This document shows positions 9,962 to 44,930 of a stretch of 47,409 nt of DNA, piece by piece. Numbering within the stretch: position 1 is the first letter of the stretch; every line of letters begins with the position of its first letter. The position numbers were made by a program, and so were the translations under genes. This DNA comes from Nitrospirota bacterium (GTDB lineage Bacteria; Nitrospirota; Thermodesulfovibrionia; Thermodesulfovibrionales; Dissulfurispiraceae), in contig JAMCVZ010000072.1 of NCBI GenBank assembly GCA_023476565.1, positions 1-47,409 of the forward strand, given 5' to 3'. The notes beneath the pieces were generated by a model, which did no database searches, was not told the origin of the DNA, and saw only the letters and a program-made list of their open reading frames with translations.

Positions 9962-9985
9962 CTTTTCTCCTTTCATCGAGGTTTT

Positions 9986-10140
9986 GGGAATGAGAGGTCT
10001 TCCGGCTCAGGGCTCCCTACTCACCCGCCTTCCCATCCGCCTAATGCGAACAGTGGCTATTAACTTGGGGCTTTCGTTCCTTTCACGGCTGCGAGACAGC
10101 AGGGGATTTTCACCCCTTTCCGCTTCTTCATTCCCCGGAT
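9986..10140 (-). promoter_or_regulatory. mid-operon cobalamin riboswitch
   Basis: Read on the minus strand this has the cobalamin aptamer landmarks in order: GGTGAAAATCCCC, the conserved GCCACTG, GGATGGGAAGGCGGG (B12 box) and GAGCCGGAAGACC with its closing stem. It begins about 36 nt after the cbiX-cbiC stop, leaving no room for a clear promoter. It ends about 13 nt before the ribosome-binding site of the outer-membrane protein gene. No T-run hairpin follows, so control of translation, or of read-through from the upstream genes, is the likely mechanism. Confidence 0.92.
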
Positions 10141-10175
10141 TTTTTGCGCTTCACGAATTCTCCGGCTTTGCTATC

Positions 10176-16393: not shown

Positions 16394-17122
16394 TCACTTT
16401 TTATCTCCGTAATAATCCGGGGTTAAATTCAACCCTTTCACTACCGGGTATTTCTCCCAGAATTCTATGATGTTGACAGAGGCAAAACTCTGCTCTATCC
16501 TGAAGATGTTTTCGAGGGGGATCCCCATAATATGGCAGAGGATTATCCGGTTGATGCCGCCATGTGCGACAATCGCTATGTTTTCGCCGTTATGTCCGGC
16601 CAGTATGCTTTTCAGGGAATTGATGACCCTCTCTTTTACCTCGATGGTGTTCTCCCCGTTTATAGGGCTGTACTTGAGCGGATTGTCCGCCCATGCCTCG
16701 AATTCGACAGGATACTTCTCTTTTATTTCGGTAAACGACATGCCTTCCCATATGCCGAAGCTCCTCTCCCTCAGGTCGGGGGTGACAATGGGCTCCAAAC
16801 CGTAGGGGGCGGCGATTATCTCGGCGCTCTTTACAGCCCTGGTGAGGTTGGAACAGTAGACAGCAGCAAGCGCTTTCCCGGAATCTGCCGGCATCGTATC
16901 GCTGACAGCGGGCTGCTGCGAATCCGTACCGTGGATATCTTTTAAATAGCCCAGGTATTTTGAAGCGGCCGCATGTCTGATCTCTTTGACCAGAAATCCG
17001 GCTGCTCTTGTGATCTGCTCGATTCCCCTTGCGGACAGGGGAACATCAATGCTTCCCTTGTAGCATTTTGTTCCGCTCCCCTCGGTTTCCCCGTGCCGGA
17101 TCAGATAAAGTGTTGTAACCAT
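16394..17122 (-). CDS. cobC: alpha-ribazole phosphatase, histidine phosphatase family
   Basis: A 242-aa phosphoglycerate-mutase-like phosphatase with the RHGET motif (His10 phosphorylated) and AHGG near residue 187. CobC removes the 5'-phosphate of alpha-ribazole-P or adenosylcobalamin-P. It is about 30-40 residues longer than usual. The extra segment at residues 53-82 (YLGYLKDIHGTDSQQ and onwards) separates two conserved blocks and may be another in-frame insertion, though the 7-bp period is not clear. It overlaps cobS by 22 bp. Confidence 0.9.
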   Translation of the reverse strand: MVTTLYLIRHGETEGSGTKCYKGSIDVPLSARGIEQITRAAGFLVKEIRHAAASKYLGYLKDIHGTDSQQPAVSDTMPADSGKALAAVYCSNLTRAVKSAEIIAAPYGLEPIVTPDLRERSFGIWEGMSFTEIKEKYPVEFEAWADNPLKYSPINGENTIEVKERVINSLKSILAGHNGENIAIVAHGGINRIILCHIMGIPLENIFRIEQSFASVNIIEFWEKYPVVKGLNLTPDYYGDKK

Positions 17123-17916
17123 AGTGTAATGACCGCCAAAAATAAAATTTCAGATATTTCACTCAGTGCGCCGAAAACATCTCCGGTAAGCCCCCCGAAC
17201 CTCTTTGCAGAAAACCTTACCGATAAAAAGCTCAATAAGTAAAACAGCGCAAACAGAATGAAAAACAATGTTATACTGCCTTGCCCGTATGCTTTTGATA
17301 AATGCAGTTCGGCAACTGCTATATAAATAAGTAACAGTAATGCGGATGCAAAAGCCACGGTATTTTTTTTGACATTGTTCAGGAATATCCGGCCCAGCCC
17401 GTCCCTTCGAGCGGATATGCCGTGATACATGGCAGGGACCGTGATCCACTTCGAAAATACCGGCATGAGGAACAGCACGGAGGCGCCGGTGAAAATGGAG
17501 TTGTCCAAAAAGAGCCGGTGTATAAAAAGGAATTTCAGGAGGATCGACATGATCAGCGCGAGCACTCCCATTGCGCCTATTGAACTGTCTTTCATTACAG
17601 CGAGCCGCCGCTCCTGATCGGCCTGCGCATTCCCTGTTGCTTTGACCGATAGTGCGTCAGCCATATCAGCAAGCCCGTCCAGATCAAAGCCCCCGCTGCT
17701 GGCTGTCAACAGCAGAAGCACGAGCCCGCTGGTTATATCCGGGGGGAAGACTTTTATCAGCAGCAGGGCGGCAAGAGCGGCAAGCAATCCCTGAAAGGCG
17801 CCGACCAGCGGGAAGAAAGCGGCTGACCTGGCAATATCTCTTTCCGATACCGTGCCGCTTACCCTTATCGGTACTATGGTAAGAAATTGGAATGCAAGGA
17901 GTATATGCTTCATCAT
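17101..17916 (-). CDS. cobS: adenosylcobinamide-GDP ribazoletransferase
   Basis: A cobalamin-5'-phosphate synthase of about 271 aa, integral in the membrane: AFQFLTIVPI at the N-terminus, AAFFPLVGAFQG, and GGFDLDGLADMADAL with the Asp-rich metal site. It couples adenosylcobinamide-GDP with alpha-ribazole(-P). An upstream TTG (17925) and two adjacent ATGs (17916, 17913) are candidate starts; none has a strong ribosome-binding site. It overlaps cobC by 22 bp. Confidence 0.92.
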   Translation of the reverse strand: MMKHILLAFQFLTIVPIRVSGTVSERDIARSAAFFPLVGAFQGLLAALAALLLIKVFPPDITSGLVLLLLTASSGGFDLDGLADMADALSVKATGNAQADQERRLAVMKDSSIGAMGVLALIMSILLKFLFIHRLFLDNSIFTGASVLFLMPVFSKWITVPAMYHGISARRDGLGRIFLNNVKKNTVAFASALLLLIYIAVAELHLSKAYGQGSITLFFILFALFYLLSFLSVRFSAKRFGGLTGDVFGALSEISEILFLAVITLWLQHFI

Positions 17917-17950
17917 TTTAAACAAGTTGTTTATTGTTATTCATCGTGCG

Positions 17951-18040: not shown

Positions 18041-19105
18041 CTAATTGAGTATTTCATTCGAAACCCCGGCCTCTCCGAAAGTCGCCATTTCCTTATAAAT
18101 CTTCAGCCCCGCCTCTATCATGAGCATGGCAAGGGCAGCACCGGTGCCTTCCCCGAGCCTGAGACCCAGATCAAGAATAGGTTTCAGCCCCATTTCGGCA
18201 AGTATTGCCGTGTGCCCTACTTCGACCGAATTGTGCGCGGCAAACATGTAGTCTCTTGTCTTAGGCTCGATGCAATAAGCGATAAGCGCACCGGCTGTGG
18301 AAATAAATCCGTCGATAATCACCGGGATCCTGTTCGAGGCCGCCCCGAGCACCAGTCCCGCGATTCCGCCGATCTCCGCCCCGCCGACCTTTGCGAGCAC
18401 GTCAACCGCGTCGTCGGGATTCGGTTTGTTGAGCTTGATGCCATTCTCGATCACCCTGATCTTTCTCATCAGCGATTCATCGGTGATGCCTGTGCCTTTG
18501 CCGGTCACCTTGGCGACCGGGTTGCCGGTCAGGACCGCTGCAATGGCGCTCGATGGGGTGGTATTGCCGATCCCCATATCTCCGGTCCCGAATATCTTAT
18601 GCCCCTTTTTTGCGTAGCCGTTTGCAATGGTGATCCCCACTTCGATACATTTGATCGCTTCTTTTCCGGTCATGGCAGGGCCTTTGGCGAAATTTCTAGT
18701 CCCCTTCACGACTTTCATTGTATTGATCAATCCGTTAAGCTCTCCGAAATCATAATCGACTCCGATATCCACGACAACGATTTCAGCGCCGGCATGGCGC
18801 GCAAGGACATTTATGCCTGCCCCGCCCCTGATGAAATTAAAGACCATCTGGGGCGTCACCTCCTTAGGGTAAGCCGATACCCCCTCTTCGGTAATTCCGT
18901 GGTCTCCCGCAAAAGTGAAAATGACCTTCTTGTCCAGGAGGGGGCTCCTGTTCTCCGTTATCGCAACAAGTTGCCCCGCAAATTCCTCAAGCCTCCCGAG
19001 ACTTCCCGGGGGCTTTGTAAGGTTGTCCAGATGTTTCTGCGCAATGGCATACCAGCTTTCATCAACCGGTTTGATGTTTTTTAACGTGCTGTTCAGTAAT
19101 TCCAT
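18041..19105 (-). CDS. cobT: nicotinate-nucleotide:dimethylbenzimidazole phosphoribosyltransferase
   Basis: A 354-aa Cob[17 protein letters not shown] near the N-terminus, [32 protein letters not shown], and [15 protein letters not shown] with the catalytic Glu near residue 320. It activates the lower-ligand base as alpha-ribotide. Its neighbours bzaF and bzaCDE imply that the base is 5,6-dimethylbenzimidazole or a relative made on site. AGAGGAGA lies just upstream of the start. Confidence 0.95.
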
Positions 19106-19148: not shown

Positions 19149-19676
19149 CTACTTTATTTTCAAAGGCATACCTGCAACCACGAGATATACCTCATCCGCA
19201 ATGCCTGCAACCCTCTGGTTCAGCTCGCCCGAGATGTCCCGGAATTTCCGCGCCAGGGCATTATCGGGGACAAGGCCCAGCCCCACCTCGTTCGATACAA
19301 TATATACCGAGGCCGCCGTGCATTCGCGGAGAGCTGAGATGAATTCATCGATGGTATCCGTTAATCCCTCTTCGTTGCCGAGCAGCACATTCGAGAGCCA
19401 GAGCGTGAGGCAATCGATAAGGACCACATCATAGCTGCTGCGGATATTTTTGAGCAGGCCGGCTACCTTGAGCGGCTCCTCGAGCGTGCTCCACTCTTCC
19501 GGCCGCTCTTCTTTATGCTTCCTTATCCTCTCCGCCATTTCGCCGTCCAGAGCCTGGGCGGTCGCAATGTACGCCTTGCTGCCGCGCAGGGCGGAAGCAC
19601 TCGAGAGGGCGAAGCTGCTCTTGCCGCTCCGCGCCCCCCCGATAACGAAAATAATCCTGCTGCCTTTGCCCGTCAT
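19149..19676 (-). CDS. cobU: adenosylcobinamide kinase / guanylyltransferase
   Basis: A 175-aa bifunctional CobU/CobP enzyme: P-loop [11 protein letters not shown] at residues 13-23, [10 protein letters not shown], and [14 protein letters not shown]. It phosphorylates adenosylcobinamide and transfers GMP to it. The start codon directly follows the bzaF stop with no gap. A 43-bp spacer with a ribosome-binding site leads to cobT. Confidence 0.94.
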
Positions 19677-20978
19677 TTACTTTTTGTCCGATCCCGCCAT
19701 ATCCTTTTCGAATATGCCTTTCAGTATATCATTTGCGCAGAACCTGCCGCACATGGTGCATGAATGGTCGCTGCCGTTCCCCCTCCTGGTCTTTATTTCC
19801 CGTGCGCGTTCGGCATCAATGCACAGGGAGAACTGGGTATCCCATCTCATGTCACGCCGAGCCTTTGCCATGATTTTATCGGCATTCATGTTCTTGTGTT
19901 TGATCATGTCCCCTACATGCGCGGCAATCCTGGATGCGATGACTCCCTCCCTGACGTCTTCCGGGAACGGCAGTCCGAGATGCTCGGAAGGGGTCACGTA
20001 GCATATAAAATCCGCTCCAAACGACGATGAAAGGGCAGCCCCTATTGCAGCGGTAATATGGTCGTACCCGGGCGCTATATCCGTGGTGATGGGGCCCAGC
20101 ATATAAAAGGGAGATTCGCCGCTCATCCTTTTCTCCATGATGATATTCGCTTCTATCTCGTTGATCGGGATGTGCCCGGGGCCCTCCACCATAGTCTGGC
20201 AGCCCGTCTCCCTGCCGATTTCGGCAAGTTCGCAGTTGATGAGCAGTTCCTGGATCTGCACCCTGTCCGTTGAATCATGGATCGCGCCGGCTCTGAACCC
20301 GTTCCCGAGGCTCAGGACCGTGTCATGTTTCTTCAGTATCGCGGCCACTCTGTCAAAATGCTCGTAAAGGGGGTTCTCTTTATTGTTGTGCTCCATCCAC
20401 GCGACCATGTAAGAGCCGCCCTTTGAGACGAGCCCTCCATAGCGGTAGTGCTGTTTCCTGAGCATCTCGACGGTCTTCCTGTTGATGCCGCAGTGGATCG
20501 CCATGAAAGCAACGCCCTCTTCGCACTGCTTTTCGGTAATCTCGAAGAGAAGCTCGGCAGGCATGTTGACGGCAGCGCCGTATTTCTCTATGGCCATTGC
20601 AAAGGCCTCGTAGAGGGGGACCGTCCCTATGGGCAGGCTTATGGAGTCCATTACCGCCTTCCTGATGCCGGCGATATCGCCGCCCACACTCAAATCCATA
20701 AGCGTATCGGCGCCGTAACGCTCGGCTATCTTCGCTTTTTCCACCTCCATCCGGATGTCGGCAATGTCGGTTGACGTGCCGATAGATGCGTTCACCTTTG
20801 TCCGCAATCCTTTGCCGATACCCACGGTTCTTTGTTTCCTGTTCTTGTTTGCCGGGATCACCAGCTTGCCGGATGCTACATACTCCCTCACAAGCTCGAC
20901 GTTTACCCCCTCATTCTCTCCGACGGTCTTGATCTCCCCGGTAACCTCTCCTCGTGCTGCTCTCTCCAACTGCGTCAT
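19677..20978 (-). CDS. bzaF: 5-hydroxybenzimidazole synthase BzaF (ThiC paralogue)
   Basis: A 433-aa radical SAM enzyme of the ThiC superfamily: GKGLRTKVNASIGTS, MVEGPGHIPINEIEAN, GPITTDIAPGYDHI, and the C-terminal cluster ligands Cys407, Cys410 and Cys414 spaced CxxCx3C. Family ThiC makes HMP-phosphate, and BzaF makes 5-hydroxybenzimidazole from the same substrate, aminoimidazole ribotide. I call BzaF on context: a cobalamin riboswitch controls it, cobU and cobT follow, and bzaC, bzaD and bzaE lie in the next operon. The ATG at 20978 has AAGGAGG at ideal spacing. Confidence 0.85.
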   Translation of the reverse strand: MTQLERAARGEVTGEIKTVGENEGVNVELVREYVASGKLVIPANKNRKQRTVGIGKGLRTKVNASIGTSTDIADIRMEVEKAKIAERYGADTLMDLSVGGDIAGIRKAVMDSISLPIGTVPLYEAFAMAIEKYGAAVNMPAELLFEITEKQCEEGVAFMAIHCGINRKTVEMLRKQHYRYGGLVSKGGSYMVAWMEHNNKENPLYEHFDRVAAILKKHDTVLSLGNGFRAGAIHDSTDRVQIQELLINCELAEIGRETGCQTMVEGPGHIPINEIEANIIMEKRMSGESPFYMLGPITTDIAPGYDHITAAIGAALSSSFGADFICYVTPSEHLGLPFPEDVREGVIASRIAAHVGDMIKHKNMNADKIMAKARRDMRWDTQFSLCIDAERAREIKTRRGNGSDHSCTMCGRFCANDILKGIFEKDMAGSDKK

Positions 20979-20987
20979 TTTATCCTC

Positions 20988-21027
20988 CTTAAAATAAAAA
21001 ATCCCCAAGGCAAAATGCCTTGAGGAT
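20988..21027 (-). terminator. riboswitch terminator upstream of bzaF
   Basis: On the minus strand, ATCCTCAAGGCA-TTT-TGCCTTGGGGAT forms a 12-bp stem (one G-T pair), followed by TTTTTATTTT. It sits between the aptamer and the bzaF ribosome-binding site. It is the OFF-state terminator expected when cobamide binds. Confidence 0.9.
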
Positions 21028-21079
21028 TGCACCCTGTTTCACTTCATCCTCACCTTCTATCCGCGAGAAGGCCTTTGTA

Positions 21080-21150
21080 GTGTCCGGTGTCAGTTTTCAG
21101 TGTCGGTTGATTTTTTTGCTGACCACCGATTACTGATTACCGTTCACTGT
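21080..21150. repeat. inverted heptamer arrays in the bzaF riboswitch leader
   Basis: One side has GGTGTCA, GTTTTCA, GTGTCGG units. The other has CCGATTA, CTGATTA, CCGTTCA, CTG, in opposite sense. They lie between the aptamer and the terminator. The same 70 bp recur almost unchanged at 25937-26008. Confidence 0.8.
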
Positions 21151-21154
21151 CTTT

Positions 21155-21361
21155 CCAGGCAGGTCTTCTGGCTCCCGGTTCATCAACGGAACCCCAAAAA
21201 GTCTGTGACTTTCTGGGGACCCCAACCTACTTGCCGGCCTTCCCATCCGTTTTGGACAGTGGCGATGGCGGCTTTCGTCCCCGGTTACAGCGGCGGGACC
21301 GCTCCCGGTTCGGGCAATTCATGAGCCCTCACGGGATTCCCTATTAAGCTTTGCGCACCTG
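21155..21361 (-). promoter_or_regulatory. cobalamin riboswitch of the bzaF-cobUTSC-cbi operon
   Basis: Minus-strand landmarks: GGTGCGCAAAGCTTAATAGGGAA (5' stem region), GCCACTG, GGATGGGAAGGCCGG (B12 box) and GGGAGCCAGAAGACCTGCC (3' closing stem). It is longer than the sister copy at 26.0 kb because of an extra hairpin stem of about 40 nt (GGGGTCCCCAGAAAGTC...GACTTTTTGGGG). A transcription terminator follows at 20988-21027. Confidence 0.95.
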
Positions 21362-21369
21362 AATACCTT

Positions 21370-21398
21370 ACTATATAACTCATTACTTCATTTGTCAA
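21370..21398 (-). promoter_or_regulatory. sigma70-type promoter of the bzaF operon
   Basis: TTGACA (21393-21398) and TATAGT (21370-21375) with an exact 17-nt spacer on the minus strand. It sits just before the aptamer, giving a predicted start near 21362. Confidence 0.85.
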
Positions 21399-21421: not shown

Positions 21422-22930
21422 TTACGCGGGTAATGCCTTTAATATTCCCGCTATTTCCCTCCCGGCTCCCTGAACGAGCGATGTCACCTCCTCCCTGCTG
21501 AGCCGCTCTCCTTTTTCAAGCGCACTCAGGCTGTTTTCAAATAACTCCACCAGCAGACGGTTTGCCCGTGCATATCGTTCCCGGGAGCCGGGCGGTTCTA
21601 TAACACGTCCGCTCCAGATGCCTTCCATGCACGAAAAGAGGATATTGGTTACCTGCCTCATCATATCGGCAAGAGTTGCCACTGCAGGGTTTTTAAAATA
21701 CGCAGTGCCCTCATAGGAAGAGGAGGGCGTATCTATGCGGCCCTCTTTCCTCAGGTGGTGATATGCCTGCGTCCCCTCCAGGATTATCTGGTGATGGTAA
21801 AGCACATTCGCAGTGACCGGGAGGTTCCTGAGCAGGTCGTTCCTCTTCAGGAACTCAAGATTTACACGGATGTCGGCCGGCGAGGAATCAGGCTCGAACA
21901 TGATGAACCCGACATTCGGCTCCACCCCGTGTTTCCGGAGAATGCCCAGCGCCCTCTCATTCTGGGCCACGGTAGTCATTTTATTCATGCGTTTGAGGGA
22001 TTCATCCCTCCCGCTCTCAAGCCCGATGAGGATATGACGGAGGCCGGCTTCTACCAATGCGCCGATAGCTTCATCATGGATGTCATTGACCCTGCCTTCG
22101 ATCCCGAACCTGACATTCCTGGGCTTGAGAAGGGAGGCGATACGCAACGCCCTTTCCTGCCCCCTCTGCCCTGGTCCGAAAAAATTCGGATCGGTAAAAT
22201 AGAAATCACGCGCCCCCCTGTCCGCCATGACGCCGTCAATCTCCTCAATGATATTTTCGGGGCCCCGGCCGCGCCATGAGGGCCCCGGACCATAGAGGGA
22301 ATTGATATAGCAAAAGGTGCATTTCCCGTAGCATCCCCTGCTCCCCAGGAGGTTCACTTCAGGCAGGCGGTACAAGGCCTCAGTGCGCACCGGAAACGGG
22401 AACTCATCGAGATTTTCTGCAGGCCTTTGCTTCAGGCAACTGATGCCGCCTGATTCGTCCCGGACAGCAAGCCCGGGGATACGCGGGGCAGGGCGCCCTG
22501 GTGAGACCGCAGAGGCCAGTCCGGCAAAAGGCATTTCCGGCTCCCCGATGATGATTGAATCAATGGCCCGGCATTGTTTCAATACGCTCTCAAAAGCGAC
22601 GGTCGGGTAAAACCCGTAAGCGGTGATTGCAGGGGACAGGCGTTCACTTTTTGTACGTCTGAGGAAATCGAAGAGGGCATGGTCCTCTTTCCAGTGATAC
22701 ACCATGTGAACACCGAGAATATCGGGCTTTGCAGCGCTTACAGCTTTCCCTATTTCCTCGTAAGAGAGCTTGTCCAAGTAGCTCTCCACGATCTCCACAT
22801 CGTGCCCCTTGCTTTTCAGCATGCCCGCAGCATACCCGGTGAGGAGGCATGAGGAGAGCGGCGTGTTCGCGATATCGTTGCACCGCTCAAGGGTTACGCT
22901 CCGCGGATGCTCCAGTAAAAGTATCTTCAT
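21422..22930 (-). CDS. bzaE: B12-binding radical SAM methylase BzaE
   Basis: A 502-aa class B radical SAM methylase. An N-terminal cobalamin-binding domain covers residues of about 1-150 (SCLLTGYAAGMLKSKGHDVEIVES). The radical SAM cluster motif CYGKCTFC is Cys200, Cys204 and Cys207. In the characterised pathway BzaE makes the last methylation that yields 5,6-dimethylbenzimidazole. I take the ATG at 22930, which shares ATGA with the bzaD stop and has GGAG upstream. It is the last of three genes. The assignment of E versus D rests on gene order and length. Confidence 0.75.
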   Translation of the reverse strand: MKILLLEHPRSVTLERCNDIANTPLSSCLLTGYAAGMLKSKGHDVEIVESYLDKLSYEEIGKAVSAAKPDILGVHMVYHWKEDHALFDFLRRTKSERLSPAITAYGFYPTVAFESVLKQCRAIDSIIIGEPEMPFAGLASAVSPGRPAPRIPGLAVRDESGGISCLKQRPAENLDEFPFPVRTEALYRLPEVNLLGSRGCYGKCTFCYINSLYGPGPSWRGRGPENIIEEIDGVMADRGARDFYFTDPNFFGPGQRGQERALRIASLLKPRNVRFGIEGRVNDIHDEAIGALVEAGLRHILIGLESGRDESLKRMNKMTTVAQNERALGILRKHGVEPNVGFIMFEPDSSPADIRVNLEFLKRNDLLRNLPVTANVLYHHQIILEGTQAYHHLRKEGRIDTPSSSYEGTAYFKNPAVATLADMMRQVTNILFSCMEGIWSGRVIEPPGSRERYARANRLLVELFENSLSALEKGERLSREEVTSLVQGAGREIAGILKALPA

Positions 22931-24249
22931 CGTATCTCCTGCCACATGAATACGTTCCTGTGGAAATGCATTGTTTCGAGCCTGTACCGGAGGGTGTCGA
23001 AAGGCGGCGGATTAAAATAAACAGGATAGAGGAGGTCTGTTCCCTCTGTTATGACTCCCTCTGCCAGGGCCCTCGCTTCGATGCGTGTGCCGGGCAGAAT
23101 GCGGATATTGTTCAGTACGATCGTGCCGAGGTTTCTCTTCCTGCTGTGCAGGTTGTATATCCGTTCCAGCATCCGGACGCTTTTTTCGCAGGTCTCTTCA
23201 GTTTCACCCGGAACGTTTACCATGAAGTGATATACGCTGATCGCATCTGTCCCGGCAACGATGCGTGCCGCCTTCAGGATATCAGGCTCGCTGAGCTTCT
23301 TCCCCAGTGCTTCAAGAGATTCACGGCAGAGGCCGTCAGGGGAAAAGGAAAAGCACTCGCATCCTGCTTTCTCAAAGAGGAGCGCGTTTTTTTCGTTCAG
23401 ATGGTCCTCCCTCATGAAGCCGTCCCATTTGACCTTCAACTTCCTCCGGATGATCTCTTCGCTGATCTCTTCCAGGTGGCCGCAGGGGATATTCAAGACC
23501 GGATCGGTGAAATGGAAACGCCCGATGCCATATTCCTTGTGCAGCATTTCGATCTCATCCACAACCGCCGCAGGGGGACGGCGCCGTACCTTTTTACCCT
23601 GCAGCTTCGGGTACACGCAATAGGCGCAGGTAAAAGGGCAGCCCCGTTTGGTTTCAATACCTATGGCAGGGACATAGGAATTAATATCAAGGTAGCGGGA
23701 GGGATCGAGCAGCTCCCTGTCAGGGGGCCGGTAGTGCGCCATGTCAAATGCGCGCGATGGAGGGGTTATTTTAATCCTGTCGCCCTTCCTCACGCAGAGC
23801 CCTTTTAACGGAGGCGGATTCCCGGGGGAAGAGAGCAGGGCGGGTAATGACAGCTCGGCCTCACCGATGAGACCGTAATGGATTTCAGGCAGTTCCTGCA
23901 TCAATCTCTCCGGGAAGAGGGAAAAACCGGTCCCCCCTGCGATAATCCATGCCCGCGGCATGAGGGCCGCGGTCATGCGCACCGCAACGGAGAAATGGGG
24001 AACCAATGAGGCGGTCTTGTTGCCGAGCGGATCGATATTCCGCAAAGATATGCCGACTGCCCCGGGATGGAAATCCAGGAGCTTCTCTTTCAGCGCGCCG
24101 AAGGGGTCGCTTTCAAGGTTCATGTCTATGATGGCTGTTTCATGGCCGGCCTTGTTCAGGCAGCCGGCAAGTGAGACAATACCGATGGGATAGACCTTTT
24201 CCTGGGAGGCGCCCTCTACAGAGGGGGATTGTATGAGAAGAATACGCAT
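22927..24249 (-). CDS. bzaD: B12-binding radical SAM methylase BzaD
   Basis: A 440-aa class B radical SAM methylase. A cobalamin-binding domain (residues 1-140, YPIGIVSLAGCLNKAGHET) is followed by the cluster motif CPFTCAYC at Cys204, Cys208 and Cys211. BzaD methylates C6 of 5-methoxybenzimidazole in the known pathway. It depends on cobalamin, so the operon makes a part of its own cofactor. It lies 4 bp after bzaC and overlaps bzaE by ATGA. Confidence 0.77.
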   Translation of the reverse strand: MRILLIQSPSVEGASQEKVYPIGIVSLAGCLNKAGHETAIIDMNLESDPFGALKEKLLDFHPGAVGISLRNIDPLGNKTASLVPHFSVAVRMTAALMPRAWIIAGGTGFSLFPERLMQELPEIHYGLIGEAELSLPALLSSPGNPPPLKGLCVRKGDRIKITPPSRAFDMAHYRPPDRELLDPSRYLDINSYVPAIGIETKRGCPFTCAYCVYPKLQGKKVRRRPPAAVVDEIEMLHKEYGIGRFHFTDPVLNIPCGHLEEISEEIIRRKLKVKWDGFMREDHLNEKNALLFEKAGCECFSFSPDGLCRESLEALGKKLSEPDILKAARIVAGTDAISVYHFMVNVPGETEETCEKSVRMLERIYNLHSRKRNLGTIVLNNIRILPGTRIEARALAEGVITEGTDLLYPVYFNPPPFDTLRYRLETMHFHRNVFMWQEIR

Positions 24250-24253
24250 ATCT

Positions 24254-25813
24254 TCACTCCAGCAATATCAAGGCGTAATATTTGACAAAGTCGCTTTTAC
24301 TGTCGAGCGTCCGGAGCGTAAAGCCGGCCCGCCTGACCGTCTCATACACATCGATGCCGGCCCCTTCCATAGACGGCCTGCTGTCTTTGGTGTTGTAGCA
24401 TCTACCGTCAGTAGGACAGGCGGGACAGAGGGAGCACGGGCCTGCCCAGAACGCAAACGCCTTATGGAATCCCAGGGTGAAGGCCTCTCTTTCAGCCTTT
24501 AATACGCGGAGCTGAAATTCTTTTGCCGGCGGCTCCCCTTCCAGCAGGATTGCAGAGATATAATCTTTCATGATTTCCCTTGTCCTTTGGGGAGAAGGGC
24601 TGTGGGGCGGACAATGAGGGCTCCCATACCGGCTGCATCCAAACCGGCAGCGCAGGTCGGTCCAGCCGGGGACATGAATCATATCTATGGGAACAGGTCT
24701 GATATGGCGAAATCCCAGCGCGCGGATCCTGGAAACCAGAACAGCTCCCTTATCGAGATAAAGATGTGATAAGGTTTCTTCACTCTTCGCTGCAATGATA
24801 AGGGCTGTATCTGTTCCGAGGGGGACAGGGCCGGTTGTGCAGAGCTCCAGTCGTGAAAGTTCTTCCATGACCGAGCTATGGGAGAATACCCTTCCATTAT
24901 AGGTGTTGATCAGCATATTCAGATCGAAGAGGGCCGCCTTTTCAGGGCGGTGCTCCAGGAAAAAATCATGAATTATAAGAAACCCGTTTGCCTTCAGGCA
25001 CTCCGCGGCATTGGCAAGAATGTGGGGAAGCTCCTTTTCGGAATAGGCATGAATGATATTGGAGAGAACGACCAGCTCGAACCGTCCCTTGCCCAAAGGC
25101 CACGGGTCCAGGATGTTAGCCGCACAATACGTTATCCTCTCATTCAAATCTTGTCCGCCGATAAACTCCCCGGTATGGTTCAGCACTCCCGGTATATCCA
25201 TGAGTGTAGCCCTCATGGAAGGAAAATGCTCAAGAAATCCCGCTGCTATCGCGCCTGAGCCTGCTCCTGCATCGAGGATTTCCCCTCCTTCAAGGGCATT
25301 GCTGAACATGGGCAGAATCTCCCGGGTCTTTGCCCGTGCGATGCAATCCATGGCGCCGATATATTTACGGATGCGGCGCGCCAGATGTGCGGGCTCTTCC
25401 AGCGCAGGACTGTGGTCGGTTCTGCCCCCGGCCTTAAGGCATTGCTTCAGGCTTTTCCAACGGCTGACGAGGCTTTTTCGCCAGAGTATGGACTCTCCCT
25501 GGTAGTATTTTTTGCCGGCAACGAGATATTCGCTTGAAAGCTGTGTGTTGAAATAATGTCCGCTGTCATTGTGCAGGAGACCCAGCACGCAGAGGGCATG
25601 CAACAGCCGTGCAAGGCCTTGGGGCGCAAGGTCCAGCGCGCATGAAATCTCCTTGGCGGTTTTCCCCTCAGAACCGAGGAACGTAAAGACGCCGGCCTCG
25701 ACCGCTGTAAAGAGCACTTCGGAAAACCAGTATGCAGTAGCCAGATCTTCCAGGTACTGAGGACCGGTATTCTGAGGGTCATACAAAAAAAATGGCAATG
25801 TTTTATCGATCAT
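24254..25813 (-). CDS. bzaC: BzaC-like O-methyltransferase fused to DUF2284
   Basis: A 519-aa fusion. Residues 1-345 are a class I SAM O-methyltransferase of the hydroxyneurosporene/BzaC type: helical dimerisation domain, then motif I ILDAGAGSGAI at 179-189 and HDFF near 282. Residues 350-519 are DUF2284, a cysteine-rich predicted metal-binding domain with CRFGC, CPPH, CSLCPAC and RPSMEGAGIDV. The first part should convert 5-hydroxybenzimidazole to the 5-methoxy form. The second part has no known reaction. The ATG lies in the tail of the riboswitch terminator with no separate ribosome-binding site, so the stem GGGG may serve. Confidence 0.8.
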   Translation of the reverse strand: MIDKTLPFFLYDPQNTGPQYLEDLATAYWFSEVLFTAVEAGVFTFLGSEGKTAKEISCALDLAPQGLARLLHALCVLGLLHNDSGHYFNTQLSSEYLVAGKKYYQGESILWRKSLVSRWKSLKQCLKAGGRTDHSPALEEPAHLARRIRKYIGAMDCIARAKTREILPMFSNALEGGEILDAGAGSGAIAAGFLEHFPSMRATLMDIPGVLNHTGEFIGGQDLNERITYCAANILDPWPLGKGRFELVVLSNIIHAYSEKELPHILANAAECLKANGFLIIHDFFLEHRPEKAALFDLNMLINTYNGRVFSHSSVMEELSRLELCTTGPVPLGTDTALIIAAKSEETLSHLYLDKGAVLVSRIRALGFRHIRPVPIDMIHVPGWTDLRCRFGCSRYGSPHCPPHSPSPQRTREIMKDYISAILLEGEPPAKEFQLRVLKAEREAFTLGFHKAFAFWAGPCSLCPACPTDGRCYNTKDSRPSMEGAGIDVYETVRRAGFTLRTLDSKSDFVKYYALILLE

Positions 25814-25936: not shown

Positions 25937-26008
25937 GTGTCCGGTGTCAGTTTTCAGTGTCGGTTGATTTTTTTGCTGACCACCGATTACTGATTACCGT
26001 TCACTGTA
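25937..26008. repeat. inverted heptamer arrays in the bzaC riboswitch leader
   Basis: Nearly identical to 21080-21150: the same GGTGTCA/GTTTTCA units and the inverted CCGATTA/CTGATTA units. The copy lies in the same place between aptamer and terminator, so it was carried along in the cassette duplication. Confidence 0.8.
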
Positions 26009-26011
26009 TTT

Positions 26012-26176
26012 CCAGGCAGGTCTTCTGGCTCCCGGTTCGTCCTACTTACCGGCCTTCCCATCCGTTTTGGACAGTGGCGATGGCGGCTTTCGTCCCCGGT
26101 TACAGCGGCGGGACCGCTCCCGGTTCGGGCAACTCATGAGCCCTCACGGGATTCCCTATTAAGCTTTACGCGCCTG
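26012..26176 (-). promoter_or_regulatory. cobalamin riboswitch of the bzaCDE operon
   Basis: A sister copy of the aptamer at 21155-21361, with long identical blocks around GGGAATCCCGTGAGGG, the GCCACTG core, the B12 box and the closing stem. It lacks the extra 40-nt stem. It instead has about 35 nt inserted nearer the terminator (25880-25915, CACAAAAGACCGGGTCTTTTGTG-like hairpin). Confidence 0.95.
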
Positions 26177-26185
26177 ATTGCCTAT

Positions 26186-26214
26186 GTTATATGACTCAAT
26201 GCTCCCTTTGTCAA
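26186..26214 (-). promoter_or_regulatory. sigma70-type promoter of the bzaCDE operon
   Basis: TTGACA (26209-26214) and TATAAC (26186-26191) with a 17-nt spacer, at the same distance from the aptamer as in the bzaF copy. The flanking bases are diverged but the promoter architecture is kept. Confidence 0.85.
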
Positions 26215-28653: not shown

Positions 28654-30606
28654 TTATGCGGCCTCCTGGGCCTTTCCCGGTAATATCCCTTTAAGGTGGG
28701 GGAATTCATCGAACATATGCGGGAACTGCATCGCCTCACCGAAGCGGTCATTGAAGTCCTCTTCAAGGGCAAGCTCGACATACTCGACCTTTCGCGCAAT
28801 CTCATTGGCCTCACGCCTCCTGTCTACGTTCAGGAGCGCTATGCGTGCGCCGTCGCCTGCGGCGTTGCCGATGTATTCGACCTTTTTGAGATCGCAGTCG
28901 GGGAACATGCCGATGACCATTGCTTCGACCTTATCGATATGGCTCCCGAAAGCGCCTGCAACTGCCAGGCGGTCGAATTTCCTGATGCCGAGTTTCCGCA
29001 TCATGATGAGGCATCCTGAATAGAGGGCGCCCTTGGCAAGCTGTATGGCGCGAACATCCTTCTGGTTTACGACGATATCCTGATCAATGGATGTCTCGTG
29101 TTTCCAGGCAAGGACATATTCCGTGACCCCCTTGTCCCCTTTTCTCAGGCGCGGTGATTTGAGGTCCATATTGATCTGGCCGTTTTTCCTTAATATGCCG
29201 GCCTTGAACATCTCCGCGATCGCATCGATAATCGCAGAGCCGCAAATGCCCTTTGCCTGCATGTTGGTCTTTCCGTCGCTCCACTCGTCGTTGCCGATAA
29301 CCTTGTATGTTGCTTCCAGTGTCTTCGGATTGATCTTAATCCTCTCGATAGCTCCGGGTGCGGCACGCATCCCGAATTCTATCTGCGCGCCTTCAAGGGC
29401 GGGGCCGGTCGCGCATGAGCATGAGATGAGTTTTTCCTTGTTGCCGAGGACCAGCTCCCCGTTTGTGCCTATGTCGATGAGCAGGGTCATTTCTTTGCGC
29501 TTGTGCGGCTGATCGGCAATCAGGCATCCTACGTTGTCAGCGCCTACAAAGCCGGCCTCGATGGGCATGACGTGAACGTTGCCCGCGGGGAGGATGTGTA
29601 TCCCAAAGCGGTCGGCCTTTACGTCCACGGATTCGTGGAGGGCAGGGGTAAAGGGGGCCACCCCCATATATTCGGGATTGATCCCGAGCAATATATGGTG
29701 CATTGCGGTATTACCCACGAGGGTCATTTCACTGATGTCCTCGGGAGAACAGCCGGCCTTTTTCGCGGCCTGTTTCGCAATGGTGTTGAGCCCCTCGATG
29801 ATGGTCTGCTGAAGCTCCTTAAGACCCGTTCCCTCGTTCATCATGCAGTACGTAATACGGGACATGACATCTTCCCCGTACCGTACCTGCGGGTTCATCA
29901 TCGACTCTGTTGCAAGCACTTCGCCGGTATTGAGATCGGTAAGATATCCCGCGCAGGTCGTAGTGCCGATATCGACAGCAAGGCCGATGCTGGACTCAAC
30001 CTTCCCCGGCTCGACCCTGATGACCTCCCTGCCCTGCCATACCGTTGCCGTTACCTTCCAGTCGCCTTTGCGGATCGCATCGGGCAATTGCTGGAGCACC
30101 CGGTAGTCGATCGAGAGTTTTTTTGCTCCATGCGCTTTGGCAAGGGCTTCTTCAAGCCGCTCGAAGTCGCCCAGCGGATCGTCCAGAGAGGGCAGGGGGA
30201 GTTCGACATAATACTTCCTGACCGCAGGTTTCAGTTTTACTTTGATCTTGCCCGCCGCCTTGCTGACGACCTGCTTGCCGGTGCGGCTCGCCTCGGGAAC
30301 AAACACAAGCACATCGCCGTATATTTTCGTGGAACATGCCAGGCGTATATTCTCCTCGGATTCCTTGCGCTGCAGGACCTTTACCTCTTTTTCATCGAGC
30401 CCGCTGAGATGGCCCATCGAAGAGGTTATATCCTCTTTGGGGAATTTGCCCTCCATAACCTTGACCCTGCATTTGCCGCAGACCAGTTGCTCTCCGCAGA
30501 CCGCCTCTATGCCGACCCCCAGCCTTCGGGCGGCCTCGAGAATAGTCGTGCCTTCAGGAACGAGGCCGCGGCGGCCTGAGGGCTGAAAAATAATCGTGTG
30601 ATCCAT
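28654..30606 (-). CDS. corrinoid protein reductive activator (RACE/RamA-like ASKHA ATPase)
   Basis: A 650-aa protein. An N-terminal [2Fe-2S] ferredoxin domain has Cys37, Cys43, Cys46 and Cys near 91. A linker follows, then a C-terminal ASKHA ATPase domain (DUF4445) with VDIGTTTCAG near 208, LVGNTAMHH, IDIGTNGELVLG and AVAGAFGSH. Such proteins use ATP to reduce Co(II) of corrinoid proteins back to Co(I). The partner is very likely the corrinoid protein encoded just upstream. AGGAGG precedes the start by 11 nt. Confidence 0.92.
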   Translation of the reverse strand: MDHTIIFQPSGRRGLVPEGTTILEAARRLGVGIEAVCGEQLVCGKCRVKVMEGKFPKEDITSSMGHLSGLDEKEVKVLQRKESEENIRLACSTKIYGDVLVFVPEASRTGKQVVSKAAGKIKVKLKPAVRKYYVELPLPSLDDPLGDFERLEEALAKAHGAKKLSIDYRVLQQLPDAIRKGDWKVTATVWQGREVIRVEPGKVESSIGLAVDIGTTTCAGYLTDLNTGEVLATESMMNPQVRYGEDVMSRITYCMMNEGTGLKELQQTIIEGLNTIAKQAAKKAGCSPEDISEMTLVGNTAMHHILLGINPEYMGVAPFTPALHESVDVKADRFGIHILPAGNVHVMPIEAGFVGADNVGCLIADQPHKRKEMTLLIDIGTNGELVLGNKEKLISCSCATGPALEGAQIEFGMRAAPGAIERIKINPKTLEATYKVIGNDEWSDGKTNMQAKGICGSAIIDAIAEMFKAGILRKNGQINMDLKSPRLRKGDKGVTEYVLAWKHETSIDQDIVVNQKDVRAIQLAKGALYSGCLIMMRKLGIRKFDRLAVAGAFGSHIDKVEAMVIGMFPDCDLKKVEYIGNAAGDGARIALLNVDRRREANEIARKVEYVELALEEDFNDRFGEAMQFPHMFDEFPHLKGILPGKAQEAA

Positions 30607-30746: not shown

Positions 30747-31418
30747 CTATGCAGCCTTTCCCTTCCTGAGCGTCTCCAGCATTTTCATCGCCTCGCGCAG
30801 TGCGTTCGGAGCGTTGTCCGCAGTTGTATCAGCGCCGTACTCCTCAACCGTCTTCTCGGTGATGGGAGCCCCTCCGATCATTATTTTGACCTTCGGGTTC
30901 TTTTCCTTGATCATCGGGATGAGCTTCTTGATGCCGACCATCGAGGTGGTCATCATGGCCGAGAGCATGACGATGTCCGAATCCGTCTTGAGTTGCTCGT
31001 CCACGAATTTCTGAAGGGGAACGTCCCTGCCGAGGTCGTGCACTGTCCAGCCGGAGGCCTCGAATATCGCCTTGATGATATTTTTGCCGAGGTCGTGCAC
31101 GTCACCCTGCATAACGCCGAGTACCACCTGGCCCTGTGCACCCCCTTCCTTTACTTGAATATGGGGCTTCAGCACATCGAGCGCTGCATACAGCGCCTTT
31201 GCGCAGAGGAGTGTCTCCGGTACGAAATACTCATGGCTGTCGAATTTTTCGCTGACGACTTCCATGCCTCCTGCAAGTCCTTCCATGGTCACGGTGTAAG
31301 CGTCTGCGCCCACTGCGACGGCCTCATCGGCGATCTTCTTGGCTTCAGCGACCTTGTAGTTTATGATCGCATCCTGAAGCCTTTTGATTAATTCCTGCTC
31401 TTTCTCTTTTGTTGCCAT
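30747..31418 (-). CDS. methyltransferase corrinoid protein (MtaC/MtbC family)
   Basis: A 223-aa cobamide-binding protein. An N-terminal four-helix cap covers residues 1-90. A Rossmann B12 domain follows with GDVHDLG, His108 being the lower axial cobalt ligand, then LSAMMTTSM and IGGAPIT. It carries a methyl group between two methyltransferases. It lies between the UroD-family methyltransferase and the reactivation ATPase, a standard three-part layout. AAGGAG precedes the start by 8 nt. Confidence 0.94.
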   Translation of the reverse strand: MATKEKEQELIKRLQDAIINYKVAEAKKIADEAVAVGADAYTVTMEGLAGGMEVVSEKFDSHEYFVPETLLCAKALYAALDVLKPHIQVKEGGAQGQVVLGVMQGDVHDLGKNIIKAIFEASGWTVHDLGRDVPLQKFVDEQLKTDSDIVMLSAMMTTSMVGIKKLIPMIKEKNPKVKIMIGGAPITEKTVEEYGADTTADNAPNALREAMKMLETLRKGKAA

Positions 31419-31449: not shown

Positions 31450-32520
31450 TTATTTGTACACGCCGTACTTCTTTGCTGCCTCTACGATGCGCCTGGCGTT
31501 GAGCAAAGGCGCGTTCACAGGGTACTCGCAGCCTGTAGCGAGGATGAAGCCCCCGCCTTTCGCGAAGATATCTATCTCTGCCTTGCATTCCTCTTCGACC
31601 TCATCAGGGGTGCCGAGCATGGCAACGGGTCCGGGCGGTATCCAGCCTATTGTGGCGATCTTGCCTCCCCATTTCGCCTTGTGCTCTTCCCAACTGTCCA
31701 CATCATCCGCCACATAGGCGTGGGAAATGGCATGCGGGTTGGCCCACTTCTCGGACATGTCGAAGTAGATGCCGTTGCCGCAATTGTGAAGGCTCACGAG
31801 CGCCCCTGCGTTCCGAACGGTAGTGCATACTTTCTTTATGGATGGTCCCTCGAACTTCTCCCACAGGTTTTTACTCAAAACGCTCTGAGAGGCATACAGG
31901 TGGTCGTAGCAGATCGAATGGGCGCCTGCCTCGATCTGGGCTACGGCATACTCATTAAGCACTTCATCCATAACCCGGAGGGCCGCCTCGACCTCTTCAG
32001 GATACTCCACAAGATCAGTAAAGAAAGCCTCAGGCCCGCGCAGCATGCTCATAACGCCTATAGAGCCGTAGACGAAGCCGACGATCGCATGTGTTTTGCC
32101 GATTACTTTCGACAGGCCGGAAATCGTGTCTATCACGCTTTTCATCCTCTTTGTCTTCCTGGGGTTGATCCGGGCGATTTTCTTGTAGTCTTCTTTCGGG
32201 TTTTTGATGAAAGGGTTGTCGTAATTGGGGTGAGCGGTATCGTAATGCGGGAAGACCATTTCGCACCCAAAATCGGCAGCCTCCACCGACAGGTCCACCA
32301 GCATGACCACGCCGTCATGGCCGATCAGTTCCAATGATTCGAGATGTCCGCGCACCATCATCTCCACGTTGTCGCCTTCCGACCATTCCCCCAATGAGAT
32401 GCCGGCTACCCTGCATGATGCTCCGCATACAAGGGGTGCTGCCGGGACCCTGTCGGGTTCCTTGAACTGCAGGGTGGTTGCCACCCTTTCAAGACTCGTC
32501 ATTTCCTCTTTCCTTGACAT
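31450..32520 (-). CDS. UroD-family corrinoid methyltransferase, copy 2
   Basis: A 356-aa TIM-barrel protein of the uroporphyrinogen decarboxylase/MtaA-MtbA superfamily. The zinc thiolate site is visible: His and Cys in LHNCGN, Cys in LATGCEYP. That signature marks methylcobamide-dependent methyltransferases rather than HemE. It is directly upstream of the corrinoid protein (31 bp), so it probably moves a methyl group to or from it. Whether it is the substrate-facing or acceptor-facing enzyme cannot be told. AGGAGG precedes the start. Confidence 0.88.
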   Translation of the reverse strand: MSRKEEMTSLERVATTLQFKEPDRVPAAPLVCGASCRVAGISLGEWSEGDNVEMMVRGHLESLELIGHDGVVMLVDLSVEAADFGCEMVFPHYDTAHPNYDNPFIKNPKEDYKKIARINPRKTKRMKSVIDTISGLSKVIGKTHAIVGFVYGSIGVMSMLRGPEAFFTDLVEYPEEVEAALRVMDEVLNEYAVAQIEAGAHSICYDHLYASQSVLSKNLWEKFEGPSIKKVCTTVRNAGALVSLHNCGNGIYFDMSEKWANPHAISHAYVADDVDSWEEHKAKWGGKIATIGWIPPGPVAMLGTPDEVEEECKAEIDIFAKGGGFILATGCEYPVNAPLLNARRIVEAAKKYGVYK

Positions 32521-32597: not shown

Positions 32598-33260
32598 CTA
32601 ATCAACCAGGATCAATCCGTTCCAGACAACCTCCTGCTTCGGAGGTATATCAAAGGGAAGTCCTGCCTTGATGCTTGTTTTAACTACGTCTATACCGACA
32701 CCCTCCATAGACGGCCGCGCCTCGTATGGACGGCGGCACCCTTTTCCAGAGCATGTGCCTACGCATTCGGGGCAGAGCATGCACTCGCCGCCGATGAGTC
32801 CGAGGGCATAATGGAAACCGAGCGCCATTGCTTTCCCTTCCACCTCATTCACCAGTTTGTGCAGCCTGACCGCCGCAAGTCTCACGTTGTTGAAGTCTTC
32901 AGCCGATGACTTCTCCTCTCCTCCCGTCGCTTTCCGCGGTTTGCCCGGCGCAAGGAGAAACTGCAGCGCCTCGTTTTTATCGAAGCTCTCCATCTCTCCG
33001 CTGAGCAGGCTCCGCGTTTGAACGAGAAGGGCCTTCCTGTAACATTTCAGCGCCCTGCTGAACTCCTCCATTGTCGGGACATTCGGAGGGCAGGTCAGGG
33101 TGCGGCCGTAATGGGGGCACAGGGGTATCCGGCACTTGAGCCTTACCCTTTCATCAAGAGCGACCCACCTGGCAGAAAAGGCCCGTGCGCGGTAAGCGCC
33201 CTTTCCAAGGGCAAATTTCTCGAGCTCCCTTATCCTTGCGCTGCCGGCCGTCTTCTTCAT
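32598..33260 (-). CDS. DUF2284 metal-binding protein
   Basis: About 220 aa. Cysteine motifs are CRIPLCPHYGRTLTCPPN near the N-terminal third and CMLCPECVGTCSGKGCRRP towards the end, then ARPSMEGVGIDV. It is the same family as the C-terminal half of BzaC here. Cysteine number and spacing suggest an Fe-S or zinc/corrinoid-linked role; none is proven. I prefer the ATG at 33260, joined as TAATG to the preceding zinc-ribbon stop, over the ATG at 33272. Confidence 0.82.
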   Translation of the reverse strand: MKKTAGSARIRELEKFALGKGAYRARAFSARWVALDERVRLKCRIPLCPHYGRTLTCPPNVPTMEEFSRALKCYRKALLVQTRSLLSGEMESFDKNEALQFLLAPGKPRKATGGEEKSSAEDFNNVRLAAVRLHKLVNEVEGKAMALGFHYALGLIGGECMLCPECVGTCSGKGCRRPYEARPSMEGVGIDVVKTSIKAGLPFDIPPKQEVVWNGLILVD

Positions 33261-33484
33261 TATTTGCCCCATATGTATGTTTTGGGTTTGTACTCGTCGA
33301 CCTTTACCATGTTCTCATTCAGGACTACCTGTTTCTTCTTCCAGCACTTCGGGCACATGTAGCGGGATTTGAACCCCCTGTGCGGGCCTGTGTACCTGAG
33401 CTCCATATGGGCCTTGCACATTTTCGTGCCGCACTCCCGGCAGATGTAATCCGCTCTTCCCCCACATTTGTAACAAGCTTCCAT
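33260..33484 (-). CDS. small zinc-ribbon protein
   Basis: A 74-aa protein: MEACYKCGG, YICRECG, CKAH and YMCPKCWKK, giving two or three pairs of zinc ligands like a B-box or double zinc ribbon. AGGAGG lies 6 nt upstream of the ATG at 33484. It could be a metal-handling or protein-binding adaptor for the operon. No specific family is recognised. Confidence 0.75.
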   Translation of the reverse strand: MEACYKCGGRADYICRECGTKMCKAHMELRYTGPHRGFKSRYMCPKCWKKKQVVLNENMVKVDEYKPKTYIWGK

Positions 33485-33504
33485 GGTTACCTCCTCTTTT
33501 TTCC

Positions 33505-33545
33505 GCAACCCGTTGCGCGTAATGCGTTACGGGTTATGTTGTCAG
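33505..33545. repeat. heptamer array at the end of the VWA gene
   Basis: GCGTAAT, GCGTTAC, GGGTTAT units with an ACCCGTTGCG start. The TAA stop of the VWA gene lies at the array's edge, again placing a gene end in repeat DNA. Confidence 0.6.
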
Positions 33546-36233: not shown

Positions 36234-37060
36234 AGTATCGAAGAGACGACCTCCTCAAGCGTTTTCTGGATCTCGGGGTCGTCGGTAATGGGCCGTATCA
36301 GGGCGACAGAGCATGCGCGCCGCGGAGCTACCCCCTTTTTGATCAATACCCCCGCGTAAATCAGAAGGCGCGTGCTGACACCCTCGTCCAGGCCGCGGTC
36401 TTTCAGCCCCCGGATCTTTTCGGCTATCCTCCTCAGGGCAGAGGCCACTTTCGGATCAACCCCGCTCTCATGCATTACGATCTCATTCTCAAGGTCTGCG
36501 GAGGGGTAATCGAAATCAAGGGTTATGAACCTCTGCTTGGTGCTTTGTTTAAGGTCCTTGAGCACTGTCTGGTATCCGGGATTGTATGAGAGGGCAAGCA
36601 TGAAGCTGTCGGTCGCTTCCAGGATCTGGCCCCGCTTCTCCAGGGGGAGGACACGCCGGTCGTCGGTAAGCGGGTGTATCACCACCGTTGTATCTTTTCT
36701 CGCTTCGACTACTTCGTCGAGGTAGCATATGCCGCCGTGCCTTACAGCCAGGGACAGGGGGCCGTCCTGCCAGCGGGTGGTATTGCCGTCTAAGAGATAG
36801 CGGCCGACGAGATCGCTCGCGGTCAGGTCCTCGTGGCAGGCTACTGTTATGAGCGGCAGCCCTATCTTGTATGCCATATAGGAAAGGAACCTGGTTTTGC
36901 CGCAGCCGGTAGGCCCCTTCAGCATCAAGGGCAGCCTGTTCTCATAGGCGATGGTGAACAGTTCGACCTCGTCCTGCACCGGCAGGTAGTACGGCTCGCT
37001 TTCAATCCGGTAATCCTGCATGTTTATCTCGGGTGTCTGTCTCTGTATGGAATCTTTCAT
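36230..37060 (-). CDS. MoxR-family AAA+ ATPase (NorQ/CbbQ-like)
   Basis: A 276-aa AAA+ ATPase. Walker [11 protein letters not shown] lies near residue 47, Walker [12 protein letters not shown] near 112, and the sensor ALSYNPGYQ, typical of CbbQ/NorQ, near 155. It powers its VWA partner encoded immediately downstream. It is separated by 10 bp from the 142-aa gene upstream. GGGGAG precedes the ATG. Confidence 0.9.
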
Positions 37061-44597: not shown

Positions 44598-44601
44598 TTG
44601 G

Positions 44602-44635
44602 AAAGCCGTATTCGGGAAAACTGAACGTACGGTTT
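44602..44635 (+). ncRNA. group II intron domain V
   Basis: A 34-nt hairpin with the catalytic AGC (in AAAGCCGTA), a GGGAAAACT terminal loop region and the CGT bulge before ACGGTTT. This is the standard domain V architecture. It is followed by sequence fitting domain VI. The RNA 5' domains are absent, so the intron should be inactive. Confidence 0.75.
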
Positions 44636-44930
44636 GACGAGGGGGAACTGGCGTAGTAGCACTGAAAGCTGTAAACCGGCAGGTAAGGGGCTTGACTTTG
44701 TTAAACCAGCCTGACCCCATCTTACTCTCATCTCGCTGGAAGCAATAATTAGAACCGTTATCACTTTATGGCAGTGGATAGATGCTCCTTATGAGATGTC
44801 GCCTATGATTGGTGACACAGAGCAAATTGCATTGAGCTTTTCGTAATTGGACAGCATAATGAGCTTGGAGAAAAATGAAAGGGCAACCTGGGTTGAGGGA
44901 AAGGGGATTTACCCATCTAAAACCGCTGTT
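44636..44930. other. intergenic region after the intron remnant
   Basis: Contains the intron's domain VI to about 44690, then an open + frame without a start (SLEAIIRTVITLWQWIDAPY and on to GDTEQIALSFS, stop at 44846). It could be the 3' exon of a gene interrupted by the intron. No promoter or RNA is seen. Confidence 0.35.

Follow-up and report, generated by a model that had tools for sequence, protein, structure and literature searches.

In a 47,409-nucleotide stretch of Nitrospirota DNA (assembly GCA_023476565.1, contig JAMCVZ010000072.1; hereafter the window), the bzaC gene of a bza operon runs on in frame into DUF2284, the PF10050 family of "predicted metal-binding proteins". What does this domain do on BzaC, and which step of the pathway does it serve?

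The 519-residue fusion protein starts at an ATG and is a real, conserved protein. Residues 1-345 form the methyltransferase portion, with Pfam matches to Dimerisation (residues 15-98, E 2.7e-16) and Methyltransf_2 (residues 150-310, E 1.1e-16), while DUF2284 is matched at residues 374-518 with 106 bits against a gathering cut-off of 25. The GxGxG SAM motif and the HD pair of BzaC (G183, G185, G187, H282, D283) are invariant in 43 proteins, and the top structural neighbours of the BzaC model were SAM O-methyltransferases (best Z 28.5). Judged by its domains, motifs and operon place, this portion is BzaC, and it is predicted to methylate 5-hydroxybenzimidazole or its riboside; Mathur and colleagues reportedly described BzaC in 2020 as the O-methyltransferase of bza operons. 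The earlier note had recognized the fusion and placed it at 24254-25300, a span that lies within the gene and covers only the C-terminal two thirds of the ORF. An assembly or frameshift artefact was ruled out, as the fusion is conserved in several phyla, in cultured organisms as well as uncultured ones. It is present in a genome of the same genus (80% identity), at every one of the 15 bzaD loci that were sampled from the phylum, and in cultured Bacillota; the nearest relatives are Nitrospirota MAGs.

The gene sits in a bza operon, with bzaD/bzaE and cobT/ThiC-like genes (Table 1). It begins 185 bp downstream of a cobalamin riboswitch and is followed on the minus strand, in order, by bzaD, bzaE, another cobalamin riboswitch, a ThiC-like gene, cobU, cobT and cobS; the gap between bzaC and bzaD is 5 bp. 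We identified bzaE by synteny and by homology to the third radical SAM position in other bza operons, and no curated BzaE model matched the window's gene. The ThiC-like gene is single-copy in Nitrospirota bza loci. The window holds three cobalamin riboswitches in all, each on the minus strand, the third being at 9975-10147. Elsewhere in the window, a group II intron match at 44601-44720 scored 42.3 bits, barely above its gathering threshold of 40, and one open frame at 46061-47320 combines a Carbamoyltransferase C-terminus with an ASCH domain.

Table 1. Features of the window discussed in the text, with the evidence for each assignment.
Feature	Coordinates	Strand	Evidence
bzaC-DUF2284, 519 aa fusion protein	24254..25813	-	ORF, Pfam, conserved in other genomes
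DUF2284 domain, residues 350-519, seven conserved cysteines	24257..24766	-	PF10050 E 2.2e-30; AF2 pLDDT 86
BzaC O-methyltransferase part, Dimerisation + Methyltransf_2	24767..25813	-	Pfam; model vs SAM O-methyltransferases
bzaD, B12-binding radical SAM protein	22927..24249	-	TIGR04385 685 bits, cut-off 450
bzaE, second B12-binding radical SAM protein, proposed DUF2284 partner	21422..22945	-	synteny C-D-E + homology
cobalamin riboswitch upstream of bzaC-D-E	25998..26192	-	RF00174, 107 bits
cobalamin riboswitch upstream of ThiC-like gene	21141..21377	-	RF00174, 93 bits
ThiC-like gene, probable BzaF-type 5-hydroxybenzimidazole synthase	19677..21032	-	BzaF vs ThiC ambiguous here
cobU	19149..19676	-	PF02283
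cobT	18041..19105	-	TIGR03160 449 bits
cobS	17101..17925	-	PF02654
standalone DUF2284, 224 aa	32598..33272	-	PF10050 E 9.8e-40
URO-D / MtaA-CmuA-like methyltransferase	31450..32520	-	PF01208; TIGR01463 below cut-off
corrinoid protein	30747..31418	-	B12-binding + B12-binding_2
RACo-type reductive activator	28654..30606	-	RACo_C_ter, Raco_middle, RACo_linker, Fer2

To ask how widespread the fusion is, we scanned a BzaD alignment against one genome per species (84,980 species), which gave 64 loci. Nearly all of those with a readable bzaC have BzaC-DUF2284, and the fusion accompanies BzaD almost without exception in Nitrospirota, Bacillota, Desulfobacterota and Actinomycetota. Cultured Bacillota that carry it include Desulfosporosinus, Desulfoscipio, Desulfocucumis and Anaerovirgula, and the BzaC of Acetobacterium woodii (operon given in PMC8123684) is likewise fused. 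DUF2284 is rare in Nitrospirota (8 of 198 genomes); in five of the eight, the domain lies in an ORF of 524-568 aa, four of these ORFs being in bzaD loci and the fifth adjoining bzaE. Several irregular frames were also seen. In G940, from the family of the Moorella-type genome G724 discussed below, one frame (L367 / L378:7319-8557) joins a bzaB-like start, a piece of cobT and a BzaC-DUF2284 end, the product of either an assembly error or deletions within a bzaB-cobT-bzaC operon. A frame in G788 (L364 / L379) joins what looks by eye like a diol-dehydratase N-terminus to a bzaC fragment, either a chimera or an assembly error, and proteins of 474-510 aa in G605 and G511 (L227:6018-7550, L237:6181-7605) have DUF2284 at the N-terminus instead.

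The DUF2284 part of the fusion contains seven cysteines (C389, C393, C401, C460, C463, C466 and C472), where about ten had been claimed for residues 350-519. The first six are invariant in 43 aligned fused proteins and C472 is present in 42 of the 43. They are spaced as C-x3-C-x7-C-P-P and C-x2-C-x2-C-x5-C, followed by RPSMEGxGIDV. PF10050 members are usually standalone proteins of ~180 aa, whereas here the domain is fused to BzaC; the standalone proteins have the same seven-cysteine pattern, and the fusion, which is above the family cut-off, shares both this pattern and the RPSMEGxGIDV motif. Genome-wide there are only two DUF2284 copies, the fusion and one standalone gene in the window, and the motif said to be common to them was seen as RPSMEGAGIDV and RPSMEGVGIDV. 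With seven near-invariant cysteines in two motifs, binding of an Fe-S cluster is plausible. No Fer4-type Pfam match was found among 51 DUF2284 domains; other Pfam matches of family members (zf-A20, DUF5981) were weak and scattered and were judged to be due to chance. In the literature searched, DUF2284 appeared only in tables with no function assigned to it, COG5423 and PF10050 did not appear, and IPR019271 appeared in a tables-only source.

A sequence search with standalone DUF2284 retrieved no relative of solved structure at E values up to 10. Full-length searches with the fusion, by profile and by model, returned O-methyltransferases only, the larger domain filling both lists; thus, a separate AF2 model of the DUF2284 domain was made. 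Its best PDB neighbour was residues 1-171 of the epoxyqueuosine reductase QueG (Z 7.6, 4.2 A, 133 aligned residues; Foldseek prob 0.96, E 0.04), followed by the reductive dehalogenase NpRdhA (Z 7.3), a BluB-like protein (7.0), nitroreductases and MMACHC (6.7). The best neighbours are the cobalamin domains of QueG and reductive dehalogenases, BluB and MMACHC, which have a nitroreductase-like scaffold. In QueG, the clusters are housed in a separate ferredoxin domain. As every Z is below 8 and no sequence link to QueG or nitroreductase-like proteins was found, this modelled likeness is weak and serves as a lead only.

DUF2284 is also found at the C-terminus of larger proteins in the selenoprotein families NF041536 and NF045648 (MbdU), where it follows a SAM-methyltransferase or other domain. 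The fusion scores 91 and 89 bits against them, below their cut-offs of 575 and 600. These selenoproteins are without the CxxCxxC motif, whereas the window's fusion has no in-frame UGA. Four further DUF2284 proteins with a different N-terminal domain (L090:7372-8900, L243:1548-3100, L242:836-2400, L244:6900-8390) have an in-frame TGA in a C-terminal GAxUPSGE motif and are missing CxxCxxC; selenocysteine is likely, as in NF041536 and NF045648.

The earlier note had suggested that the domain might supply electrons to BzaD/BzaE or protect a metal. Each locus was classed by tblastn for the BzaC methyltransferase, DUF2284, BzaD and BzaE; unfused-type BzaC matches in G1074, G964 and G986 lie outside this classification. 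DUF2284 occurs in cis with BzaE at 71 loci, some of which may share a species, and four of these have no BzaD. Among the classified loci, none has DUF2284 in cis while demonstrably lacking BzaE, L391 ending at a contig edge. In the sample from the phylum of Desulfoscipio, bzaE accompanies all 15 fused BzaC genes that have readable context. The four operons without bzaD (L395-L398) all pass directly from bzaC-DUF2284 to bzaE, and BzaD was absent genome-wide from G840 and G146.

The reverse arrangement was also found. L091, L114 and L096 have BzaD, no BzaE and no intact DUF2284; they represent two lineages (L091/L114 and L096), which include Desulfosporosinus, and BzaE was not found elsewhere in genomes G407, G413 and G409. 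In L091 and L114, the frame behind the bzaC stop still encodes the end of DUF2284, while L096 has lost the middle of the domain and retains a frameshifted tail. At all three, bzaD is intact, with DUF2284 remnants on its BzaC side and bzaE missing on the far side. In a BzaC tree, DUF2284-free sequences nest inside fused groups, which indicates that they arose by loss.

By Fisher tests that ignore kinship, DUF2284 is associated with BzaE (p=1e-5) and not with BzaD (p=0.34). From these comparisons of gene content, the domain is coupled to BzaE rather than to BzaD. The suggested electron supply thus fits the data for BzaE and fails for BzaD, since the domain was lost in BzaD-only and kept in BzaE-only lineages. 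One could still suppose that DUF2284 donates electrons to BzaD and BzaE alike, as both of these B12-dependent radical SAM methylases need low-potential electrons and are encoded in one operon. However, the lineages with BzaD and without BzaE deleted it, BzaE-only operons keep it and the two Fisher results diverge, so we regard such a donor as very unlikely and service to BzaD as disfavoured.

The number of independent BzaE losses is small. Of the three, two come from MAGs, and one amounts to a single deletion that removed neighbouring pieces. This last one is seen in the Moorella-type genome G724, where the locus (L380) contains bzaA-bzaB-cobT-bzaC only and encodes a BzaC of 364 aa without DUF2284. 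Neither BzaD nor BzaE was found in this genome. Its sister locus L395 (G840) is 96% identical in DNA through the end of the methyltransferase and then continues into DUF2284 and bzaE, both of which are gone from L380. Because the two are adjacent there, one deletion suffices, and the Moorella-type case alone is no proof of coupling. The gene order of L380 is that given for Moorella thermoacetica (PMC8123684).

With so few events, it is conceivable that decaying bza operons simply shed several pieces, and that DUF2284 has no special relation to BzaE. We consider chance of this kind quite unlikely: two lineages retain an intact bzaD between the two lost pieces, the four BzaE-only operons retain DUF2284, and a duplicate in G605 retained it after its methyltransferase had decayed. 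That duplicate belongs to one of two apparent exceptions, G414 and G605, in which BzaE is present and BzaC is unfused. In G605, the SAM motif of a paralogue derived from BzaC (L226:5881-7446) is destroyed, whereas its DUF2284 retains all seven cysteines and falls within the clostridial branch of BzaC. The gene seems to have been duplicated, each copy then losing a different part, so that DUF2284 would be provided in trans. The comparable protein of G414 (L388) belongs to a clade found also in G887 and G911, genomes without a BzaD or BzaE ortholog, so that the case for supply in trans is weaker and the origin of the protein less certain. At L376 and L377, in genomes without BzaD, BzaC-derived proteins likewise combine an intact DUF2284 with a methyltransferase that has decayed; they lie beside genes for hydantoinase A/B, a UbiX-like flavoprotein, UbiD and an amino-acid permease.

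Could the domain instead aid BzaC itself, in stability, substrate binding or metal protection? Their place on the same chain would suggest so. However, G724, G605, G414 and two Desulfosporosinus have bza operons in which BzaC is free of DUF2284 and keeps intact SAM and catalytic motifs. The Moorella-type BzaC shares methyltransferase fold and operon place with the window's BzaC; it differs in having no DUF2284, in a genome without BzaD and BzaE, while its kin at the DNA level have the fusion. Moreover, the BzaC of Moorella thermoacetica has reportedly been reconstituted as an active O-methyltransferase. A helper of BzaC is thus highly improbable, and these sequences make it unlikely that the O-methyltransferase reaction requires DUF2284. 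For metal protection, we found no specific support.

The standalone DUF2284 gene of the window, reported previously at 32598-33260 in a corrinoid C1 operon, was found there, together with genes for a URO-D/MtaA-like methyltransferase, a corrinoid protein and a RACo, with a somewhat longer frame (Table 1) that has an in-frame ATG at 33260. To see whether this neighbourhood recurs, we counted corrinoid neighbours (B12-binding, URO-D or RACo) within six genes of 69 standalone DUF2284 genes from Clostridia, Nitrospirota and other genomes. They were present for 30 of the 69, compared to 2 of 40 regions picked arbitrarily from those genomes (Fisher p=7e-6), and the enrichment that the earlier note had anticipated is therefore real. 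The genes that recur next to standalone DUF2284 are represented by URO-D/B12-binding fusions, RACo, URO-D, pterin-binding methyltransferases and PocR-type regulators. Only a part of the family shows this link, as over half of the standalone genes have no corrinoid neighbour. RACo and other activating enzymes of corrinoid proteins share operons with DUF2284 and a like need for low-potential electrons (PMC6739815), although RACo is unrelated to DUF2284, which has no Fer2 or ASKHA part. Re-reduction of the corrinoid is thermodynamically demanding (PMC6739815). On its other side, at 33260-37060, the standalone gene adjoins genes for an 82-aa cysteine-rich protein, an 899-aa VWA protein and a CbbQ/NorQ-type AAA ATPase, which are conserved next to standalone DUF2284 at further loci of Nitrospirota. 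Pairs of VWA protein and CbbQ/NorQ-type AAA ATPase often insert or remodel metal cofactors.

5,6-Dimethylbenzimidazole, the lower ligand of vitamin B12, is made by the oxygen-free route from 5-hydroxybenzimidazole by way of 5-methoxy- and 5-methoxy-6-methylbenzimidazole (PMC9405231). In this pathway, the 5-hydroxyl is methylated by BzaC, the 6-methyl group comes from BzaD, and in the last step BzaE converts the methoxy position to methyl, formally ArOCH3 + CH3(+) + 2e- -> ArCH3 + CH3O(-). By electron count, this swap takes two electrons beyond the methyl cation of SAM, and BzaE therefore needs reducing power. We know of no explained mechanism for the BzaE reaction, from 5-methoxy-6-methylbenzimidazole to 5,6-dimethylbenzimidazole. 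A cysteine-rich domain that is kept for the BzaE step and found beside RACo is most readily interpreted as a redox partner. Tentatively, and at a little less than an even chance, we propose that the DUF2284 part of BzaC binds metal, probably as Fe-S, and is a redox accessory serving BzaE and not BzaC's own O-methylation. Its seven cysteines would hold one or more Fe-S clusters that feed electrons to BzaE, perhaps by direct contact, or keep its cobamide reduced, and BzaC would bring substrate and reductant together. The standalone proteins may act likewise upstream of RACo, in operons for corrinoid methyltransferases.

The main rival dispenses with electron transfer: DUF2284, holding for instance a structural zinc, would serve in docking or substrate transfer and let BzaC hand the methoxylated benzimidazole to BzaE. 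It accounts equally well for the co-loss with BzaE and agrees with the tight operon. Against this, standalone copies lie beside RACo and corrinoid methyltransferases, the seven cysteines found across the family suggest more than docking, and BzaD acts between BzaC and BzaE in most operons; we hold this alternative to be doubtful. A more specific form of the redox reading, in our view unlikely, is that DUF2284 is a cobamide reductant domain with Fe-S on a nitroreductase-like scaffold, which would feed BzaE when fused and, as a standalone protein, RACo and the corrinoid methyltransferases of acetogens and their relatives.

The redox reading names a concrete candidate partner for BzaE, the DUF2284 domain carried on BzaC. 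Work on DUF2284-free BzaC of the Moorella type would not have exposed such a partner, and BzaE tested with a truncated BzaC may miss it. Furthermore, the operons with BzaE and without BzaD (L395-L398) predict a genetic route from 5-methoxybenzimidazole to cobamides of 5-methylbenzimidazole, which occurs naturally as a lower ligand and is listed as such in PMC8123684. For the "predicted metal-binding" family as a whole, these results provide a functional setting, that of corrinoid one-carbon metabolism.
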